Of a stretch of 48,167 bases of DNA, positions 39,046 to 48,151 are shown in pieces. The position numbers and the translations under genes are program-made. Each line of letters begins with the position of its first letter. Position 1 is the stretch's first letter. The DNA comes from Candidatus Falkowiibacteriota bacterium (GTDB lineage Bacteria; Patescibacteriota; Patescibacteriia; Patescibacteriales; UBA12465): positions 1-48,167 of the forward strand of contig PWHG01000069.1 of the NCBI GenBank assembly GCA_003554785.1, in the 5' to 3' direction. The notes beneath the pieces were generated by a model, which ran no database searches, had not been told where the DNA came from, and saw nothing but the letters and a program-made list of their open reading frames with translations.

Positions 39046-39672
39046 ATGATAAAAAAACTAAATCGTCTTAAAGTAATAAAAAAATTAAAATCATTAAACA
39101 TTTTGATGTTTTCGCCAAGAGAGTTTCAAGATATTTTTGGTGTTTCAAAAAATACTGCATCTGTTTTTTTAACTAATAATGTAAAAAATGATGTTTTTAT
39201 TAAATTGCGCAACGGTTTTTATATATTAAAGGATGATCAGCCTTCATTATATAAAATTGCTAATAGATTATATAGGCCTTCATATATCTCCCTAGAATCA
39301 GCTTTATCTTTTTATAATATTATTCCAGAAACAGTTTATAGTATTACCTCAGTTAGCCCAAAGGCTACAAGAGAATTTGAATCTGAAATTGGTATTTTTA
39401 GTTATAAAAAAATAAAAAAACAAGTTTTTACTGGTTATGAGCTAAAGGACTTTCACGGAGAAAAAATTTTTATAGCTGAAGCTGAAAAAGCTTTATCTGA
39501 TTATTTATATTTTGTTGATTTAAATCTAATCTCTTTAAACGATAGATTAAATTTAAAAAATATTAATAAAAAGAAATTAATCTCATATATATCAATTTAT
39601 AAAAGAAAGTCATTAAAAGATTTAATAGATAAAATTTATGTTGAATATAAAAAGCCTCGAAAAATATACTAA
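39046..39672 (+). CDS. AbiEi-like antitoxin (type IV toxin-antitoxin)
   Basis: N-terminal wHTH (FSPREFQDIFGVSKNTASVFLTN..GFYIL), YRPSYISLESALSFYNIIPETVYSITSVSPKATREFE. Confidence 0.88.
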   Translation: MIKKLNRLKVIKKLKSLNILMFSPREFQDIFGVSKNTASVFLTNNVKNDVFIKLRNGFYILKDDQPSLYKIANRLYRPSYISLESALSFYNIIPETVYSITSVSPKATREFESEIGIFSYKKIKKQVFTGYELKDFHGEKIFIAEAEKALSDYLYFVDLNLISLNDRLNLKNINKKKLISYISIYKRKSLKDLIDKIYVEYKKPRKIY

Positions 39673-40363
39673 TCAATTTCAAACCAGTCTTGATAATATT
39701 ATACGAGAATATTGCCAGCATTTATTTTTGTCATACCTATATCAAGAACCTGGTTCTGAAAAACTGTTATTTAAAGGTGGAACTGCCCTGCGAATTGTTT
39801 TTCAAAGCCCCCGTTTTTCTGAAGATTTAGACTTCACGGGCTTTAATATTAAATACAATGAAATTGAAAAACTCATTACTAACACTTTAACGAATTTAGA
39901 GAAAAATGGATTAATAGTTGATATTGAAGAAAGCAAAAAAACTAGTGGTGGTTATTTGGCAAACATACTTTTAAAAATAGAAAAAAGAAGCACTAAAATT
40001 CAAATAGAAATATCTTTAAGAAAGAGAAAAAAAATAAAAGGCACAAGGGAAATGATTCATAATAATTTTATCCCTGCCTATACTCTAATTCATTTACCTA
40101 CAAAATATTTAATAGAAGAAAAAATTAAGGCTCTGTTTAATAGAAAAAAACCACGTGATTTTTTTGATTACTATTTTTTGCTTTCTGCTAATTACTCATC
40201 AGTAAAAAATAAAGAAAATCTGAAGAAAGTCATTTTTTTACTAGAAAATAATAAAATTAATTTTAATAATGAAATTCGAAATTTTCTACCAGTTAGTCAA
40301 GCTAGACACATGAAAAATTTTAAACAAATGTTAATAGATAAAATAAAAAATTATTTAATCTAA
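39638..40363 (+). CDS. AbiEii/AbiGii-family nucleotidyltransferase toxin
   Basis: LLFKGGTALRIVFQSPRFSEDLDFTGF; EEKIKALFNRKKPRDFFDYYFLL; start overlaps the antitoxin. Confidence 0.92.
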   Translation: MLNIKSLEKYTNQFQTSLDNIIREYCQHLFLSYLYQEPGSEKLLFKGGTALRIVFQSPRFSEDLDFTGFNIKYNEIEKLITNTLTNLEKNGLIVDIEESKKTSGGYLANILLKIEKRSTKIQIEISLRKRKKIKGTREMIHNNFIPAYTLIHLPTKYLIEEKIKALFNRKKPRDFFDYYFLLSANYSSVKNKENLKKVIFLLENNKINFNNEIRNFLPVSQARHMKNFKQMLIDKIKNYLI

Positions 40364-40383: not shown

Positions 40384-40650
40384 TTATTTTTTTATATTAA
40401 TCGCTAATTGTAAATCATCGGGACTAAAACCAATTACCTTGATTGATTCCTTTTGCAGGTGTTTAGCTAAACCTTCTTTGAAGTTATCAATTTTTTTATT
40501 AATTAAAAATTTCTCAATTGAAAAAAGTCCAGTTTCAGGATAAATAAAAAAATCACCTCTAATTTTAATATCCTCTATAATTCCATTTTTTTCTTTAATT
40601 TTAATTCTCAATAGCTTTCCTTGTTCAACTTTATAATCAATTTTTCTCAT
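40384..40650 (-). CDS. lplB: LplB-like (LplA C-terminal/accessory) lipoate ligase subunit
   Basis: 88 aa GKLLRIKIKEKNGIIEDIKIRGDFFIYPETGLFSIEKFL, directly after LplA N-domain. Confidence 0.72.
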   Translation of the reverse strand: MRKIDYKVEQGKLLRIKIKEKNGIIEDIKIRGDFFIYPETGLFSIEKFLINKKIDNFKEGLAKHLQKESIKVIGFSPDDLQLAINIKK

Positions 40651-41458
40651 ATTTTTGTTTATAGTTCCAATCTTTTGTTAAATATTTATTTAAATATAGC
40701 TCATCTATCATTTCTTTTTCTTCTTTTATTAAATCAGAAGTTTTAAAATTTGCATTTAAAGCTTTAGAAAATCCTTGGGCAAAAATTTCTTGTAAATAAT
40801 TTATGTCCGTAAATCTTTGCGGAAGTTCATTTTTAAGCGAAGTTACTCTTTCTTTAACATTTTTAATTAATTTACCTTTCAGTTTCTCATTTGATACTTT
40901 TAGAATTGAAAACATCTTTTCTACATCAACTGACAACAAAATAGTTCCATGTTGAAGTATGACTCCATACTTTCTAGTTTGCCCGTTACCTGATATTTTT
41001 TTATCATTTACTAAAATATCATTTATTGGTTTAAAGCTAGCCTTTAGACCTAATTTTTCTAAACCAAGAACCACTCCATGACACAGATGTTTATATGATT
41101 CTTCAATACTAGAAGGTAAATCTTTTTCTTTTATTACCAAAGAATAAGTTAGTTCATCTTCATGAAAAACCGCCCCCCCTCCGGTATAGCGCCTAACAAT
41201 CTCTACTCCCAACTCTTCTGCTTTTTTTTCATTAATTTCTTGTTTTAAATCTTGAAAAAAACCAACAGTTATTGCACTTGGTTTCCAGGTAAAAAAGCGA
41301 AGAGTGTTAGGTGCTAAATTTTTACTTCTAGCAATTAACATTGACTCATCAATTGCCATTTGTTTAGCTCCTCTTAACTCTAAGTTTTTAATTAAGCGCC
41401 AATTATTCATATGTTTTAGCTTTATATGAGCTCCTAACATAAAAACCAGCTTGAACAT
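40637..41458 (-). CDS. lplA: Lipoate-protein ligase A catalytic domain (start may be Met at 41410)
   Basis: RRYTGGGAVFHEDELTYS, NDILVNDKKISGNGQTRK, LQHGTILL. Confidence 0.92.
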   Translation of the reverse strand: MFKLVFMLGAHIKLKHMNNWRLIKNLELRGAKQMAIDESMLIARSKNLAPNTLRFFTWKPSAITVGFFQDLKQEINEKKAEELGVEIVRRYTGGGAVFHEDELTYSLVIKEKDLPSSIEESYKHLCHGVVLGLEKLGLKASFKPINDILVNDKKISGNGQTRKYGVILQHGTILLSVDVEKMFSILKVSNEKLKGKLIKNVKERVTSLKNELPQRFTDINYLQEIFAQGFSKALNANFKTSDLIKEEKEMIDELYLNKYLTKDWNYKQKYEKN

Positions 41459-42239
41459 GCTTAAATCCCATTTTATAAGCTAAATTTTTATAAACTAAAA
41501 ACTCTTTATTAGTATAATATTTTTCAACCTTTGCATGTTTAGGACTTGGAGCTAAATATTGACCAATAGTTAAAATCTCAACTTTTGATTTTTTTAAATC
41601 TTTAAGGGTGTCTAAAACTTGTTTTTTAGTTTCCCCTAGTCCAAGCATTATGCCTGATTTCGTTTTTATTTGATTATTTAATTCTTTAGCTTTTTTTAAT
41701 AAGCTAAGGGATCTTAAATAATTACCTTCTGGTCTTAGTTTTGGAAATAATTCATCAACAGTTTCTATATTGTGATTTAATACATATGGCTTTAAATTAA
41801 CAGTTTTTTCTAAAGCTAAATTGTTGCCACCAAAATCAGGAATTAATAATTCAATTTTGCAACTTTTTCTTTTTTCTCTAATTTTTTCTACAGTTAGTTG
41901 AAATTGATCAGCACCACCATCTTCTAGATCATCTCGAGTGACGCTGGTAATTACCACATAATCTAAATTTAGTTTATCAACAACTTGGGAAATATTTTCA
42001 GCCTCATTTTTATTAACTATTTCGGGTTTTTTGTTTTCTATATTACAATATTTACAATTGCGAGTACAAATATCTCCTAAAATCATAAAGGTAGCGGTTG
42101 ATTTAGAAAAACATTCATAGCGATTAGGACAATTGCCTGACAAACAAACTGTGTTTACCTTTTTATTTTCTAACAAGCGGAGGGTTTTTAAATAATTATT
42201 TTTATTAAATTTTTTAATTTTTAAATAATTATTTTTCAT
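41403..42239 (-). CDS. lipA: Lipoyl synthase (radical SAM)
   Basis: VCLSGNCPNRYECFSKSTATFMILGDICTRNCKYCNI, TSVTRDDLEDGGADQF, NHNIETV. Confidence 0.95.
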   Translation of the reverse strand: MKNNYLKIKKFNKNNYLKTLRLLENKKVNTVCLSGNCPNRYECFSKSTATFMILGDICTRNCKYCNIENKKPEIVNKNEAENISQVVDKLNLDYVVITSVTRDDLEDGGADQFQLTVEKIREKRKSCKIELLIPDFGGNNLALEKTVNLKPYVLNHNIETVDELFPKLRPEGNYLRSLSLLKKAKELNNQIKTKSGIMLGLGETKKQVLDTLKDLKKSKVEILTIGQYLAPSPKHAKVEKYYTNKEFLVYKNLAYKMGFKHVQAGFYVRSSYKAKTYE

Positions 42240-43557
42240 TTTTTATTTTTAGTTTTTTTAAACAAAGTTCAGCAGCAACAATCACCGGGTCAAAGATTTC
42301 AGAAACAGCTGGATTATAACAAGTTTCTGATTTTATAAATTCTTCAAGTTTTAATTGATTTTTTATAGCCAAAGATACCATATTTAAATTTCCAGCCACA
42401 TCGCTGTAGCCAGCCATTTGACAACCCAATATTTTTCCTTTTAAGTCAGCTATTAAATAAACATAAAAATCCTTACTTTCTGGATAGTAGCTAGCTTTAT
42501 CTTTGCCCGTATAAAAAGCACTTGCTGTTTGTGTTTGTTTGTCCTGGCAATATTTATTTGTTAAACCACAAGATCCAAATATTAAATCACCAAATTTTGA
42601 TACACTGGTATTTAATACTTTCTCTCTTTTGCTAGATTTTTTAAGAATATTATTACTGACCACCCTGGCTTGTGAAACTGCTGTAGTCGCTAATTGACTT
42701 AAGGTTTTTTGATTGTCATAAAAATTAATTGACTCAACTATATCACCAAGCGCAAAAATATTATTATCGCTACTTTGATTATAGTCATTCACCACAACTC
42801 CTTGTTTGCATTTTAAATTTGCCTTTTTCGCTAAACTTAAATCAACTTTAAAACCACAGGCTAAAAATAAATGATCAAAGCTATTTTTATTATCTTGGCT
42901 AATTAATGTAGAGTTTTTAATTTCTTTTATTTCAATTCCTTCTAAAACCTCAACTCCGTTTTCTATCATTTTTTCTTTTATTTTTTGACTAATTTTTTTA
43001 TCATAGCTGTCTGCTAGTATTTCTGGTTTTGCTTCTACTAAACTGACCTTTAGCCCTAGTTTATTTAAAGCTTCAGCTAACTCTACTCCCACATAACCAG
43101 CCCCAACAATAACTGCCCTTTCTTTTCCTTTAACTTGTTTTTTTATACTCAAAGCATCATTAATATTTTTTAATCTAAAAAATTTATGCTCATCTAAACC
43201 TTTAATATCCGGTTTTTCAAACTTTAAACCACTGGCTAAAACTAAATAACTATAATCTAATTTTTTTCTCTGACCATCTTTTATATACTCAACTACTTTA
43301 TTTTTTTCATCTATATCAACTACTTCTGAATTTAGACGCAAATCTATTTTATTATATTGATAATATTTTTCATCAAATAGTAAAATATCCTCTGCCTTTT
43401 TAATCTTACCGCTAACTAGATAAGGCAAAGCACAGGGAGAATATTGAGTATGGCCTCCTTTTTCTAGGATAATTATTTCTGCTTCCTTGTTTTCTTTGCG
43501 TAACTGCCAAGCAACTTCACTGCCAGCAGTACCGCCACCAATTATTACTACTTTCAT
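42229..43557 (-). CDS. FAD-dependent pyridine nucleotide-disulfide oxidoreductase, CoA-disulfide/persulfide reductase-like
   Basis: VVIIGGGTAGSEVAWQL, single-Cys active site QYSPCALPYLVSG, VIVGAGYVGVELAEAL, FALGDIVES, CYNPAVSEIFDPV. Confidence 0.88.
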   Translation of the reverse strand: MKVVIIGGGTAGSEVAWQLRKENKEAEIIILEKGGHTQYSPCALPYLVSGKIKKAEDILLFDEKYYQYNKIDLRLNSEVVDIDEKNKVVEYIKDGQRKKLDYSYLVLASGLKFEKPDIKGLDEHKFFRLKNINDALSIKKQVKGKERAVIVGAGYVGVELAEALNKLGLKVSLVEAKPEILADSYDKKISQKIKEKMIENGVEVLEGIEIKEIKNSTLISQDNKNSFDHLFLACGFKVDLSLAKKANLKCKQGVVVNDYNQSSDNNIFALGDIVESINFYDNQKTLSQLATTAVSQARVVSNNILKKSSKREKVLNTSVSKFGDLIFGSCGLTNKYCQDKQTQTASAFYTGKDKASYYPESKDFYVYLIADLKGKILGCQMAGYSDVAGNLNMVSLAIKNQLKLEEFIKSETCYNPAVSEIFDPVIVAAELCLKKLKIKNEK

Positions 43558-43561
43558 ATTT

Positions 43562-44047
43562 TTAATTTTTGATTTTATTTCCTGGATCAGGACATTCTTC
43601 TTCTAAACAAAATTCTATTTTTTCCTCTAGTTCATCTTCCATTTGAGCTGAAAAACCAATTGTTGGATCAAAGTCACCAATAAAAGTCATTGGCACTCCT
43701 GATGCTCTTGCTCCATATGCCTCAGCCATTTCTTGTAGTATTTGAGCATTGTCTCTGTCTTTCCAAGTTTCATACATCTTTATCTCAAGGTCTGAGTATT
43801 TATCTTGCATTTCTTCTAAAAATTCTCTTTCCACTTCACAATGTGGACATCCATCACCCCAGAAGAAATACAGAGTAGTTTTAGCGTCTGGTCTACTCTC
43901 TCCCAGTTGAGAAGAGCTGGTTTCATCAATACTGCCTTGACCTAGATTTTGATTGTTTATTTCAGTTTCACTTGGTGAAGCACAAGCTGAAATTAGAAAA
44001 ACTGACAAAACAATTATAATTGATAATAGATAATTTTTTTTAAACAT
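43562..44047 (-). CDS. Thioredoxin-fold lipoprotein (CPHC)
   Basis: Lipobox-like FLISACAS; LYFFWGDGCPHCEVEREFLEEM; GVPMTFIGD. Confidence 0.88.
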   Translation of the reverse strand: MFKKNYLLSIIIVLSVFLISACASPSETEINNQNLGQGSIDETSSSQLGESRPDAKTTLYFFWGDGCPHCEVEREFLEEMQDKYSDLEIKMYETWKDRDNAQILQEMAEAYGARASGVPMTFIGDFDPTIGFSAQMEDELEEKIEFCLEEECPDPGNKIKN

Positions 44048-44079
44048 AAATTTATTATTATTATTTTTAAATATATTAA

Positions 44080-44481
44080 TTAATTATTTTCTACTTCTTC
44101 TTCAAGCCATGGTTGAACCTCCTTTGCGCTCAGTAGTTCATTTTTTTCTCCTGGATTGCTAATTTTAATTTTAGCAATCCAACCCTTCTCATAAGCATCT
44201 TCGTTTATAATACTGGGTTCATCAAAAACTTCTTCATTTACTGACTCAACTTTACCCGATAGTGGACTTGATAGATGACCGGTCCATTTAACTGCCTCCA
44301 GCGAGGCGTAGACATCGCCTTTTTTGATAGTTTTTCCAACTTCAGGTAATTTAATGAAAACAAACTCTTTAACCTTGTCAGCGGCTGGCTTAACTATTCC
44401 CAAAGTAGCTATGTCGTCTTCAATTTTGACCCAAGAATAATCTTGGTTGTAATATAATTTTTTTGGTAAATCTTTTTCCAT
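44080..44481 (-). CDS. GcvH-like lipoyl-domain protein
   Basis: GDVYASLEAVKWTGHLSSPLSGKVESVNEEV; predicted lipoyl-Lys65 (codon 44287-44289); no gcvT/gcvP in window. Confidence 0.88.
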   Translation of the reverse strand: MEKDLPKKLYYNQDYSWVKIEDDIATLGIVKPAADKVKEFVFIKLPEVGKTIKKGDVYASLEAVKWTGHLSSPLSGKVESVNEEVFDEPSIINEDAYEKGWIAKIKISNPGEKNELLSAKEVQPWLEEEVENN

Positions 44482-44486
44482 ATTTT

Positions 44487-45878
44487 TTAATTTAAATTAT
44501 TATTTTCATTATTATTATCTTCTTCTTGACCGTCATCTTTTGTGGCTTTTTCTATAATTTCTTTTTCTGTACCAATTTTTACTCCATATTTAGGCAACAG
44601 TTTTCTGTGAATAAATATCACTACAAAAGAAAGAACAATCGCAGAAGCAAAGATTAAAATAGTTCCACCTATATTATGCATTAAATTAGGATCAATTAAC
44701 ATAACCAAACCTAAGGCTAACATAATTACACCACCAATTAATTTTAGAATTCTACCATGCTTTTCTTCAAAACGACTAGATTTTAAGGTGAAAATAGCAG
44801 TTAATAGGATTATAATTTCTATCAATAGATAAATTGATACATATAAAATTAAAAGACTAAAAAAAGCCATGCCTTGAATTTGGCTTTGAGCTAAGATATT
44901 TGTCCAAATAAGAGGAAAGCCAGCTGTACAAGGTAACTCTACTAAAACCACTCCTAAAGCCAGTATGGTTGTACCAACTACCACTTGCCAGGTAGACTTA
45001 TCGCTTTTCATTATACCTCTGACATTTTTAAATATCTTGGGTGTAAATTTATCTGGTATAGTAAAAGATATACCCTTTTTATACCAGAAATAATCTTTTA
45101 TATTAACAGCCGCAAATATAAAAGCCATCATCGCTACTACTATTTGAATCCAGTTTAAATAACCAACATAAGTAAAGACATTAAGTAGTCCGGCCATAAA
45201 TGCAGCATAAGCAGTTCCAGTAACTAACAGAAAGGTTCCACCAACGATAAATATTTTTTTCTTTGAGCGAGTATAGATGACAATTCCTAACAGAAAGGTT
45301 ATAAGCCACAGGGAACATGGATTAAAGCCATCAATAAAAGCAATAATTCCTGTAGTGATTGCAATTGGAGTGGCTGAGAAATTAATTTCACCTACAATTG
45401 GTAAATTTACAACACTAGGATCCTCAGGAGTAATCTCTCTAGATTGCGGCATAGAAGAGGTTGTCCCTTTTATTTTCATCAGCGGACAAATACAATCCTT
45501 GTCATAACAATTAATGATTTGATTTTCTAAATTTTCTTCAATAGCACTATCACCAACTAAATAGTTATCACCAATAAATAAAATTGGATAAGCCCCACTG
45601 ACTAAACTATACTTATCTTTGAAAAGCTCATAGGTTTCTTCATTTTCTACTTCATCAACATTGTATTTTTCAATGTTTACTGAATAATCATCTTCAATTT
45701 CATCTAAATACTCATTTATACTTAAACACTGCGGACAGTCTTGTTTGTAAAATAAATGAATACACGGTTCTTGGTTATCCATCTCTAATTGATTGTCATT
45801 GGCTAACAAGGGGCTTAAATTAACCACAAAAATAGAAATGATAGCAATTACTGCTATAAATAATCTTTTTTTCAACAT
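44487..45878 (-). CDS. Thioredoxin domain (CPQC) fused to CcdA/DsbD-like membrane domain
   Basis: Signal/TM, HLFYKQDCPQCLSINEYL, then multi-TM with DGFNPCSLWL and ELPCTAGFPL Cys motifs. Confidence 0.85.
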   Translation of the reverse strand: MLKKRLFIAVIAIISIFVVNLSPLLANDNQLEMDNQEPCIHLFYKQDCPQCLSINEYLDEIEDDYSVNIEKYNVDEVENEETYELFKDKYSLVSGAYPILFIGDNYLVGDSAIEENLENQIINCYDKDCICPLMKIKGTTSSMPQSREITPEDPSVVNLPIVGEINFSATPIAITTGIIAFIDGFNPCSLWLITFLLGIVIYTRSKKKIFIVGGTFLLVTGTAYAAFMAGLLNVFTYVGYLNWIQIVVAMMAFIFAAVNIKDYFWYKKGISFTIPDKFTPKIFKNVRGIMKSDKSTWQVVVGTTILALGVVLVELPCTAGFPLIWTNILAQSQIQGMAFFSLLILYVSIYLLIEIIILLTAIFTLKSSRFEEKHGRILKLIGGVIMLALGLVMLIDPNLMHNIGGTILIFASAIVLSFVVIFIHRKLLPKYGVKIGTEKEIIEKATKDDGQEEDNNNENNNLN

Positions 45879-45884
45879 AAATTT

Positions 45885-46604
45885 TTAATTAATTAAATAT
45901 TTTATTAAATATTGACTATAATAAAGGCCACTGAGAATAAAAATAAAAGCTACGATATAGCGAACAATTTTTTCAAGTTTTTGAGTAATCCTAAAAGTTT
46001 TAGCTAATAACTTAAAACTAAAGGCAATAATTAAAGCAAAAACAATAACTGGTAAAGCACTTCCGATGGAAAAGAAAAGCGGTAAAAGTAAAGGACTGCC
46101 TGACTGAAGTACAAGTGGCACAAGGATGCCGAAAAATAAAACTCCACTATAAGGACAAAAGGCTAAAGCAAACAATACTCCTAAAATAAGTGAACCTAAA
46201 TAACCTTTTTGACCTAAATATTTTTGCCATTTAAAGAACCAATTGTTTGACTTTATAAAACTCAATCTTGTTTTTATAAACCCCAACATAAACAAAGCAA
46301 TAATGATCAGAAGTGGCCCTAAAACTATATTAACCCACTTTAAAAAAATACTTGATAAACTAAAAGCGGAAAAACCAAAATAAATTATTAAAGAAAGCAG
46401 TATATAAGTAATTGCTCTACCTAGGGTATAAAATAATCCAGAAAAAAGAACATGTTTAGAATTCTTTATTTTTTTCGATATATAAGCAACCGCAGTAATA
46501 TTAGTTGTCAGCGGACATGGGCTAATTGACATTAAAATTCCTAAAACAAAAACTGATAAAATCGGCCAATTATAATTATTTAAAAAACTATAAAATATCT
46601 CCAT
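45885..46604 (-). CDS. CcdA/DsbD-like membrane protein (ArsG-like permease family)
   Basis: LMSISPCPLTTNITAVAYI and FALAFCPYSGVLFFG in six-TM context. Confidence 0.78.
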   Translation of the reverse strand: MEIFYSFLNNYNWPILSVFVLGILMSISPCPLTTNITAVAYISKKIKNSKHVLFSGLFYTLGRAITYILLSLIIYFGFSAFSLSSIFLKWVNIVLGPLLIIIALFMLGFIKTRLSFIKSNNWFFKWQKYLGQKGYLGSLILGVLFALAFCPYSGVLFFGILVPLVLQSGSPLLLPLFFSIGSALPVIVFALIIAFSFKLLAKTFRITQKLEKIVRYIVAFIFILSGLYYSQYLIKYLIN

Positions 46605-46611
46605 AATAAAA

Positions 46612-47049
46612 TTAATTATCTAACCACTGTTTTGTCTTTTTTTCTAAATAATCAGTAAACTCATCTTGATCATTTAAATATCTCCAAACCGAAACATCTT
46701 CTTTAATTATATTTTCATTATCACTAATTATATTAAAATATAAACCTAGATTTCTAGCTGAAAATTTCTCAACTAACTCTTTATTCTCCTTATCATCATA
46801 ATTAATTTTTTTTAATTGCAGTTTATCTCTTTTAATTTTCTCATAAGCATTTTCTAGAAACTTCTCCATATTTTTACAAAAAACACAACGTTGATTTGAA
46901 TAAAAATAAACAATCTCAATTTTTTCTACATTTTCAACTGTTTCTTTTTGATCATTGTTTACCTGACTGCAAGCTGTCAAAAAAATTATTGGCAATATAA
47001 ATATTAAAATTAACAAAAAAAATTTTTTCATATTAAATAATTGATCCAA
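46612..47049 (-). CDS. Thioredoxin-fold lipoprotein (CVFC), ArsF-like family
   Basis: Lipobox-like FLTACSQ; IVYFYSNQRCVFCKNMEKFLENAY. Confidence 0.75.
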   Translation of the reverse strand: MDQLFNMKKFFLLILIFILPIIFLTACSQVNNDQKETVENVEKIEIVYFYSNQRCVFCKNMEKFLENAYEKIKRDKLQLKKINYDDKENKELVEKFSARNLGLYFNIISDNENIIKEDVSVWRYLNDQDEFTDYLEKKTKQWLDN

Positions 47050-48151
47050 AAATTAAACCACCAATTACTGAGTAAAAAACCACAAGCAACATATACACTA
47101 AAGTTTTTTTATTTCCCAACACCCTTCTAATAACTAATAAATTAGGTAAACTAAGTGAGGGCCCAGCTAAAAGCAAGGTTAGAGCTGGTCCTTGATTCAT
47201 TCCTTTAGCCATTAAAGCTTGAATTATAGGAACCTCAGTTAGGGTAGAAAAGTACATAAAAACCCCAAAAAGAGCCGCTATCAAATTACCAAAAACAGTA
47301 TTATTGCCAACTATTTGAGTTATTAACTCCTCGGGTAATAGTGGCATAATAAAACCGGCAATAAAAACACCGATCAACAGTAAAGGTAGTAATAATTTAG
47401 CAAACTTCCAGGTTTCACTTATCCATTCTTTATTGGTAGATTTTTTAAAGAAATAACTAGCTATAAAAACAACTAAAGCAACAAAAAACAGTATTAATAA
47501 ATATTTAATTCCTGCATTAATTGATAAACCAGAGACCACTAAGACGGCTAACATGCTTAACATGAAAAAAATAATATGTTTTGAATTATAATTATCATCT
47601 TTTTTACCTTCATTAACACTTAAATTTTCATTATTTTTTGTCTTTTCTTTAAAAATAAATTGCATTGATAAACCAACTAAAACTGCCATTATTATAGCTA
47701 AAATTATTCTCGCCAAACCTATTTCAAAGCCAAGCACTGACATAGTTAAAAATATTGCCGCTATATTAATTGCCGGACCAGAAAATAAAAAGGTAATTGC
47801 CGGACCCAAGCCCGCTCCTCTTTTGGAAATTCCGGCAAATAAAGGCAAAATTGTACATGAACAAACTGCCAAAAGAATCCCAGAAACAGAAGCAATTGAA
47901 TATGAAACATATTTTTTTGCCTGATTTCCTAGATACTTTAAAATAAATTCTTTTTTAATAAATACTGCAATTGCTCCAGCAATAAAAAAGGCTGGCAAAA
48001 GACAAGTTAAAACATGATCTCTGGCGTATTCATTTAACATAACCAGGCCAGCTAAAAAAGATGTACCTAAAACTGGTATATCAAGAGGCACAAAATAAAA
48101 AACTAAAAATACTGCTAAAAATAAAATTAGAGTTTTAATTTCTTTTTTCAT
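47033..48151 (-). CDS. DUF318/ArsP/SO_0444-type permease
   Basis: LLAVCSCTILPLFAGISKRGAGLGPAITFLFSGPAINIAAI, repeated GPALTLLLAGPSLSLPN half. Confidence 0.85.
   Translation of the reverse strand: MKKEIKTLILFLAVFLVFYFVPLDIPVLGTSFLAGLVMLNEYARDHVLTCLLPAFFIAGAIAVFIKKEFILKYLGNQAKKYVSYSIASVSGILLAVCSCTILPLFAGISKRGAGLGPAITFLFSGPAINIAAIFLTMSVLGFEIGLARIILAIIMAVLVGLSMQFIFKEKTKNNENLSVNEGKKDDNYNSKHIIFFMLSMLAVLVVSGLSINAGIKYLLILFFVALVVFIASYFFKKSTNKEWISETWKFAKLLLPLLLIGVFIAGFIMPLLPEELITQIVGNNTVFGNLIAALFGVFMYFSTLTEVPIIQALMAKGMNQGPALTLLLAGPSLSLPNLLVIRRVLGNKKTLVYMLLVVFYSVIGGLIFGSII

Follow-up and report, generated by a model that had tools for sequence, protein, structure and literature searches.

A candidate transmembrane thiol relay combining a lone lipoyl-H protein with a remodelled CcdA in Patescibacteria-like genomes and a Mollicutes genome

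Introduction

Which process is served by a lone GcvH-like lipoyl acceptor whose gene lies between that of a CcdA-type membrane protein carrying a thioredoxin (Trx) domain and those of lipoate assembly? The question is raised by an operon at positions 40384-48151 of a 48,167-nucleotide stretch of DNA, hereafter the window (contig PWHG01000069.1, positions 1 to 48,167 of the forward strand, assembly GCA_003554785.1, Candidatus Falkowiibacteriota bacterium). By common teaching, lipoate serves 2-oxoacid dehydrogenases and glycine cleavage as their cofactor, sulfur oxidation being a recent addition, and in the CcdA/DsbD relay electrons run from thioredoxin through CcdA to extracytoplasmic Trx-fold proteins. 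The comparative sequence analysis presented here points, with a confidence a little above even, to the cassette encoding a dedicated thiol relay across the membrane, with a lipoylated H-type protein as the cytosolic donor in place of thioredoxin. No description of a lipoyl-H/CcdA relay cassette was found in the open-access literature.

Results

The operon consists of ten open reading frames (ORFs) on the minus strand, separated by gaps of 4 to 32 bases or overlapping by 11 to 56 bases. From the first to the last transcribed gene, the order is arsP, an arsF-like gene for a Trx lipoprotein, an arsG-like gene for a CcdA protein, a Trx-CcdA fusion gene, a gcvH-like gene, a gene for another Trx lipoprotein, a gene for a CoADR-like FAD enzyme, lipA, lplA and lplB (Table 1). 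All ten ORFs, described in a first-pass annotation of the window as same-strand genes with overlaps or short gaps, were confirmed, and searches with Pfam and NCBIfam models agreed with the identities given there, the families matched being ArsP_1, ArsF, ArsG, Trx-like proteins with CVFC, CPQC and CPHC motifs, GCV_H, CoADR-like, LipA, LplA and LplB.

The cassette is rare (four loci among ~1,100 genomes, in two phyla). The assembly of the window (G000) comprises 911 kb and is 82% complete, and the sampled genomes of its phylum are nearly all ~0.4-1.4 Mb in size and mostly >90% complete. In a genome of another family (G267, 98% complete), the cassette encodes a double-Trx-CcdA fusion, the H-protein, a Trx lipoprotein, the FAD enzyme, LipA, LplA and LplB, with 43-62% identity to the window. 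A search with the gene order of the window yielded a further cassette in another genus of the same family (G1233), where ArsR, an ArsE-family Trx protein, ArsP, Trx-CcdA, the H-protein, Trx, the FAD enzyme, LipA, LplA and LplB are encoded, the cassette proteins being 52-69% identical to their counterparts in the window. Scanning of 85,462 species genomes with an alignment of the G000 and G267 H-proteins added one locus (L050), in a Mollicutes metagenome-assembled genome (MAG) from soda-lake sediment; a contig scan with the lone H-protein of the window as the query gave none. The Mollicutes cassette encodes a Trx lipoprotein, CcdA, the H-protein (54% identical to that of the window), the FAD enzyme, LipA and LplA, with neither LplB nor ArsP, and its contig, 11.5 kb long, showed no ars gene anywhere. 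The H-protein, flavoenzyme and LipA of the three other genomes are 42-69% identical to those of the window. Because three further genomes repeat the order of the core genes, the operon is more than a chance arrangement; its conserved core is Trx, CcdA, the H-protein, the FAD enzyme, LipA and LplA, the permease and ArsF/G being accessory. Recurrent synteny in relatives, named in the first-pass annotation as a check, is thus found in G1233, in G267 and in the Mollicutes MAG, hence across phyla.

The GC content of the Mollicutes contig (0.295) lies inside the range of the other contigs in the same bin (0.27-0.31), and its proteins branch deeply; the contig may be a binning error. No cassette was found in the viral contigs scanned, and in plasmid searches all H-proteins were <60% identical, the best among the matches listed reaching 36-40% and being gcvH where annotated. 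GCV_H matches of any strength, several of them weak and partial, occurred in 5 of 381 genomes sampled from the class and in 6 of 380 sampled from the phylum, G267 being among the genomes with a match. Membership of every Trx-CcdA fusion of the phylum in this system was considered and rejected, related CcdAs being present in 94 of 240 genomes and H-proteins being rare.

Three carrier genomes (G000, G267 and G728) were checked genome-wide for GcvP, lipoyl domains and Trx. No match to GcvP (PF02347) was obtained in any of them, the same model having found its target in 10 of 14 genomes as a control; the genome-wide searches did not extend to GcvT. No other lipoyl domain was detected in these genomes, with a model whose threshold the H-protein of G267 itself also fails to reach, and the H-protein of the window is the only one in G000. 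As neither GcvP nor another lipoyl domain was found, lipoate assembly appears to serve this H-protein alone, so that the genome check for gcvP and for further lipoyl domains agrees with the single lipoyl acceptor claimed at the outset, one of the carriers being 98% complete.

Other H-protein loci were found in a different setting. Among 296 Bacilli-side genomes sampled around the Mollicutes MAG, 29 other H-protein loci, those with the best scores, all lie beside gcv genes (29/29). In the phylum of the window, two genomes of one family, f29 (G019, locus L047, and G057, locus L048), carry a full gcvT-gcvH-gcvPA-gcvPB-lipA-lplAB operon with split LplA/LplB, which is rare in the phylum, and a third f29 genome (G039, L049) has an H-protein, LipA and LplAB in the same order, only these having been mapped. 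The f29 matches were rejected as relay members because those in G019 and G057 belong to true glycine cleavage operons. An H-protein match in G033 (L046, contig C26) was also set aside; it lies on a 3 kb GC-rich contig with proteobacterial-looking gcvH and gcvP genes, which is probably a contamination of that assembly.

The predicted lipoyl Lys65 is invariant across all four cassette H-proteins, which form their own clade on a long branch (100/100 support) in a tree of 37 H-proteins, 33 of them canonical. The four share Y15, S16, A63, W66, G68, H69 and S90, where H, E, S, A, S, D and E, respectively, are nearly always found in the canonical proteins (n=33). The replacements E16->S and D69->H occur in all four, against a canonical Glu in 33/33 and Asp in 32/33; these positions align with Glu14 and Asp67 of the pea H-protein, which are reported from structural work to hold the methylamine intermediate. 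The LbpA protein of the sHdr pathway carries two conserved cysteines near its N- and C-termini (PMC6067878). This pair is absent from the cassette H-proteins, three of which contain no cysteine and the fourth a single one at position 34. So, of the comparison with GcvH and LbpA suggested in the first-pass annotation, separation from canonical H-proteins is well supported, and the missing cysteine pair speaks against a sulfur carrier of the LbpA type.

The Trx-CcdA of the window is 62% identical to that of G267, 66% to that of G1233 and 37% to the Mollicutes protein, the corresponding values for the CPHC Trx lipoprotein being 58, 52 and 34%. The cysteines C188 and C317 of CcdA, in transmembrane (TM) helices TM1 and TM4, are invariant in all four H-linked proteins. 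In a tree of 33 CcdA cores these four form one clade (100/99), which unites proteins from Patescibacteria-like genomes with the Mollicutes one and leaves out 27 unlinked proteins of the window's phylum. TM helices, counted as hydropathy peaks, number seven in 4/4 H-linked CcdAs versus five or six in the 30 unlinked entries (29 distinct, L012 and L041 being one gene). The H-linked proteins also have a C-terminal extension of ~35-70 residues, and their cytosolic TM3-TM4 loop reads FWYKKG(I/L)SxTIxD, without the cysteine present there in most unlinked proteins. CcdA of the H-linked clade has therefore been altered specifically, in keeping with a lipoyl-H donor, and this strengthens the H-protein/CcdA coupling put forward earlier. 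The sister group of the H-linked CcdAs consists of f29 proteins, which have the same loop change, but not the seventh helix; at L043 4232-5470 (G039) and L042 1298-2548 (G057) no H-protein is linked to them. That f29 is both the sister CcdA family and a family with a glycine cleavage H-protein could be a clue or mere chance. The gene immediately upstream of the G267 cassette (L045 7540-8202) encodes a secreted-looking protein of 220 aa, which has a CPTC motif and no Pfam or NCBIfam match.

The flavoenzyme appears to be a family-level relative of CoADR (301 bits versus an equivalog cut-off of 579), with the redox cysteine near residue 43 present; this residue, C42, corresponds to the single redox cysteine of the CoADR/persulfide reductase/NADH oxidase group and is invariant in all four cassettes. 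Its nearest solved relatives are, in order, NoxA-3, CoA-persulfide reductase and CoADR. LipA and LplA of the window are, respectively, 53-61% and 43-69% identical to those of the other cassettes. LplB is encoded in G267 and G1233, and none is recognisable at the Mollicutes locus, whose LplA (L050 8546-9298) may act as a transferase or rely on a partner encoded elsewhere.

Arsenic-related genes adjoin the three Patescibacteria-like cassettes: ArsP with ArsF/G in the window, ArsR-ArsE-ArsP in G1233 and ArsR-ACR3 in G267. The window ArsP is 67-69% identical to the ArsP proteins beside Trx-CcdA in G193 (L041) and G1233 (L096). An ArsE-family gene lies upstream of arsP in G1233; the window has ArsF and ArsG above cut-off, and its contig ends before that position. 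ArsP is absent from the G267 and Mollicutes cassettes, and ArsF/ArsG from those of G1233 and Mollicutes. Related CcdAs without an H-protein lie in an ArsR-ArsP neighbourhood in G193 and an ArsR-ArsP-ArsM-CDF-ACR3 neighbourhood in G039. Envelope metalloid handling is plausible in Patescibacteria-like genomes because three cassettes sit with ars-type genes, whereas a metalloid role is not part of the core, since no ars gene accompanies the Mollicutes cassette on its contig. The metalloid detoxification offered as one possible use in the first-pass annotation would concern only the Patescibacteria-like loci.

Transcription of the operon begins at the contig end, and as only 16 bases remain upstream of arsP, any genes further upstream are invisible in the window. 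The listed starts of LplA (41458) and of the CVFC Trx protein (TTG, 47049) are probably slightly too far upstream. Just past the 3' end of the operon, positions 39046-40363 of the plus strand encode a 208 aa protein without a Pfam match and then an AbiEii nucleotidyltransferase (90 bits), a pair looking like an AbiE-type toxin-antitoxin pair.

Table 1 Genes of the operon in the window, listed in the direction of transcription
Product	Coordinates	Strand	Status	Basis of the assignment
ArsP/DUF318 permease, first visible gene	47033..48151	-	accessory	PF03773 (ArsP_1) 284 bits
ArsF-family Trx-like lipoprotein, CVFC	46612..47049	-	accessory	NF040494 64.6 bits, cut-off 60
ArsG-family CcdA-like membrane protein	45885..46604	-	accessory	NF040495 264 bits, cut-off 200; DsbD_2 73 bits
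Extracytoplasmic Trx (CPQC) fused to 7-TM CcdA; TM cysteines C188, C317	44487..45878	-	core	identity to other cassettes; clade 100/99
GcvH-like lipoyl acceptor, predicted lipoyl Lys65	44080..44481	-	core	GCV_H PF01597 128 bits; TIGR00527 below cut-off
Extracytoplasmic Trx-like lipoprotein, CPHC	43562..44047	-	core	weak Thioredoxin_2 match
CoADR-like FAD/NAD(P)H enzyme, single redox cysteine C42	42229..43557	-	core	Pyr_redox_2 206 bits; CoADR 301 bits, cut-off 579
Lipoyl synthase LipA	41403..42239	-	core	TIGR00510 315 bits, cut-off 310
Lipoate-protein ligase catalytic subunit LplA	40637..41458	-	core	PF21948 (LplA-B_cat) 172 bits
Lipoate-protein ligase small subunit LplB	40384..40650	-		NF053749 68.8 bits, cut-off 65

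Discussion

The proposed relay would begin with the attachment of lipoate to Lys65 of the H-protein by LplA (with LplB) and LipA, followed by reduction of the lipoyl disulfide by the CoADR-like flavoenzyme, which would use NAD(P)H and Cys42. The dihydrolipoyl arm would then reduce the cysteine pair of the 7-TM CcdA, and the electrons would pass on from CcdA to the Trx domain fused to it and to the Trx lipoprotein beyond the membrane. The relay would be joined to metalloid-resistance neighbourhoods (ArsP, ArsR, ACR3, ArsE/F/G) in Patescibacteria-like genomes, where its likely use is the redox handling of thiols or (organo)arsenicals at the envelope. Lipoylation and the electron flow are suggested by linkage, conserved residues and co-divergence, and in principle the direction of the electrons could be reversed. 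The chain from NAD(P)H over flavoenzyme, lipoyl-H and CcdA to external Trx, the most parsimonious reading of these parts, had already been drawn in the first-pass annotation and gains support from recurrence, the sole lipoyl client and the co-divergence of CcdA; the permease and ArsF/G do not belong to its core.

Several points weigh against such a relay. Only four cassette loci are known. The acceptor of the flavoenzyme is uncertain because the protein resembles CoA/persulfide reductases and NADH oxidases, not lipoamide dehydrogenase. The loop change of CcdA is by itself no proof of H-protein binding, as the f29 CcdAs have it without a linked H-protein. Moreover, ordinary Trx is present in G000, G267 and G728, each together with a TrxB-sized Pyr_redox_2 protein, so CcdA could use this ordinary pair, and the lipoyl-H line would have to be a parallel and dedicated one.

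Among the alternatives, the lipoyl arm might carry sulfur: it would hold sulfane sulfur (persulfide) as a cousin of LbpA, the flavoenzyme would be a persulfide reductase, and CcdA and Trx would supply or withdraw sulfur or electrons. There is a precedent for a GcvH-like sulfur carrier that has lipoate assembly of its own (PMC6067878, PMC10332631), and CoA-persulfide reductase is the second-best solved match of the flavoenzyme. Such a function nevertheless seems unlikely, given that all four H-proteins are without the LbpA cysteines, the flavoenzyme has no rhodanese domain, LipA is encoded instead of LipS1/S2, and no shdr genes were seen in the four cassettes, the rest of the genomes not having been searched for them. 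Dihydrolipoyl is a classic target of trivalent arsenicals. The H-protein could accordingly be imagined as a metalloid chaperone, whose dithiol, kept reduced by the flavoenzyme, would bind trivalent (organo)arsenicals and pass them to ArsP or ACR3, as the ars-type genes adjoining three cassettes might suggest; this is rather unlikely in view of the ars-free Mollicutes contig, and the constant CcdA and Trx neighbours would be left unexplained. A lipoyl-H protein that scavenges oxidants and is regenerated by the flavoenzyme, CcdA and Trx belonging to a shared stress response without direct transfer, would match what has been proposed for the SirTM operon, where a lone GcvH-L occurs with its own LplA and flavin oxidoreductases (PMC4518038). 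It is improbable here, because no sirtuin or macrodomain is encoded among the cassette genes and CcdA diverged together with the H-protein, which implies a direct partnership. Finally, service of this GCV_H-family protein in glycine cleavage or in a 2-oxoacid dehydrogenase encoded elsewhere, for which the complete system with LipA/LplAB in G019 and G057 could be cited, is very improbable and largely refuted by the lack of GDC-P and of a second lipoyl domain in the three carriers and by the replaced Glu and Asp, 18% of G000 being missing from the assembly.

A dedicated lipoyl-H/CcdA thiol relay would share parts with several known systems. Like the CcdA/DsbD relay, the cassette has a TM cysteine pair and an extracytoplasmic Trx domain and lipoprotein, but it co-encodes lipoyl-H, a flavoenzyme and lipoate assembly, and in its CcdA a seventh TM helix (versus six) is present and the cytosolic loop is altered. 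LbpA, from the sHdr pathway of sulfur oxidation, is likewise GcvH-like, stands outside glycine cleavage and has its own lipoate ligase and synthase (PMC6067878, PMC10332631); the cassette H-protein differs in its cysteines and in the use of LipA. The GcvH-L/LplA2 pair of the SirTM operon resembles it in combining a lone H-like protein with a dedicated LplA and with flavin oxidoreductases, of which OYE binds lipoylated GcvH-L (PMC4518038), whereas the cassette has no class M sirtuin, a CoADR-like flavoenzyme and CcdA/Trx coupling. With the ArsEFG and ArsP organoarsenical modules the window shares the ArsF, ArsG and ArsP families, and G1233 the ArsE family, but here they are joined, as inconstant members, to a lipoyl-H/flavoenzyme/LipA/LplAB cassette. 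From the glycine cleavage H-protein, with which the GCV_H fold family and the lipoyl lysine are shared, the protein is set apart by its separate clade, the replacement of two near-invariant residues and the absence of GcvP in the carriers.

The membrane half of the proposed relay is familiar and the lipoyl half is not; it would be a CcdA-type relay with a new kind of cytosolic donor. There is slightly less than an even chance that the cassette represents a membrane electron relay of a new class: a lipoylated carrier with its own reducing flavoenzyme would take the place of thioredoxin and donate electrons, from the cytosolic side, to a remodelled CcdA. As a small, self-contained gene set, it would be open to reconstitution. 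Bacteria with reduced genomes here retain full lipoate assembly for one protein apparently unfit for the known tasks of lipoate, beside a thiol transporter that has changed together with it. If the relay is real, it would be the only detected use of lipoate in the carrier cells, would add a further physiological role of H-type lipoyl proteins to those in glycine cleavage, sulfur oxidation and the SirTM system, and would show what, besides thioredoxin, can power CcdA-type transporters.

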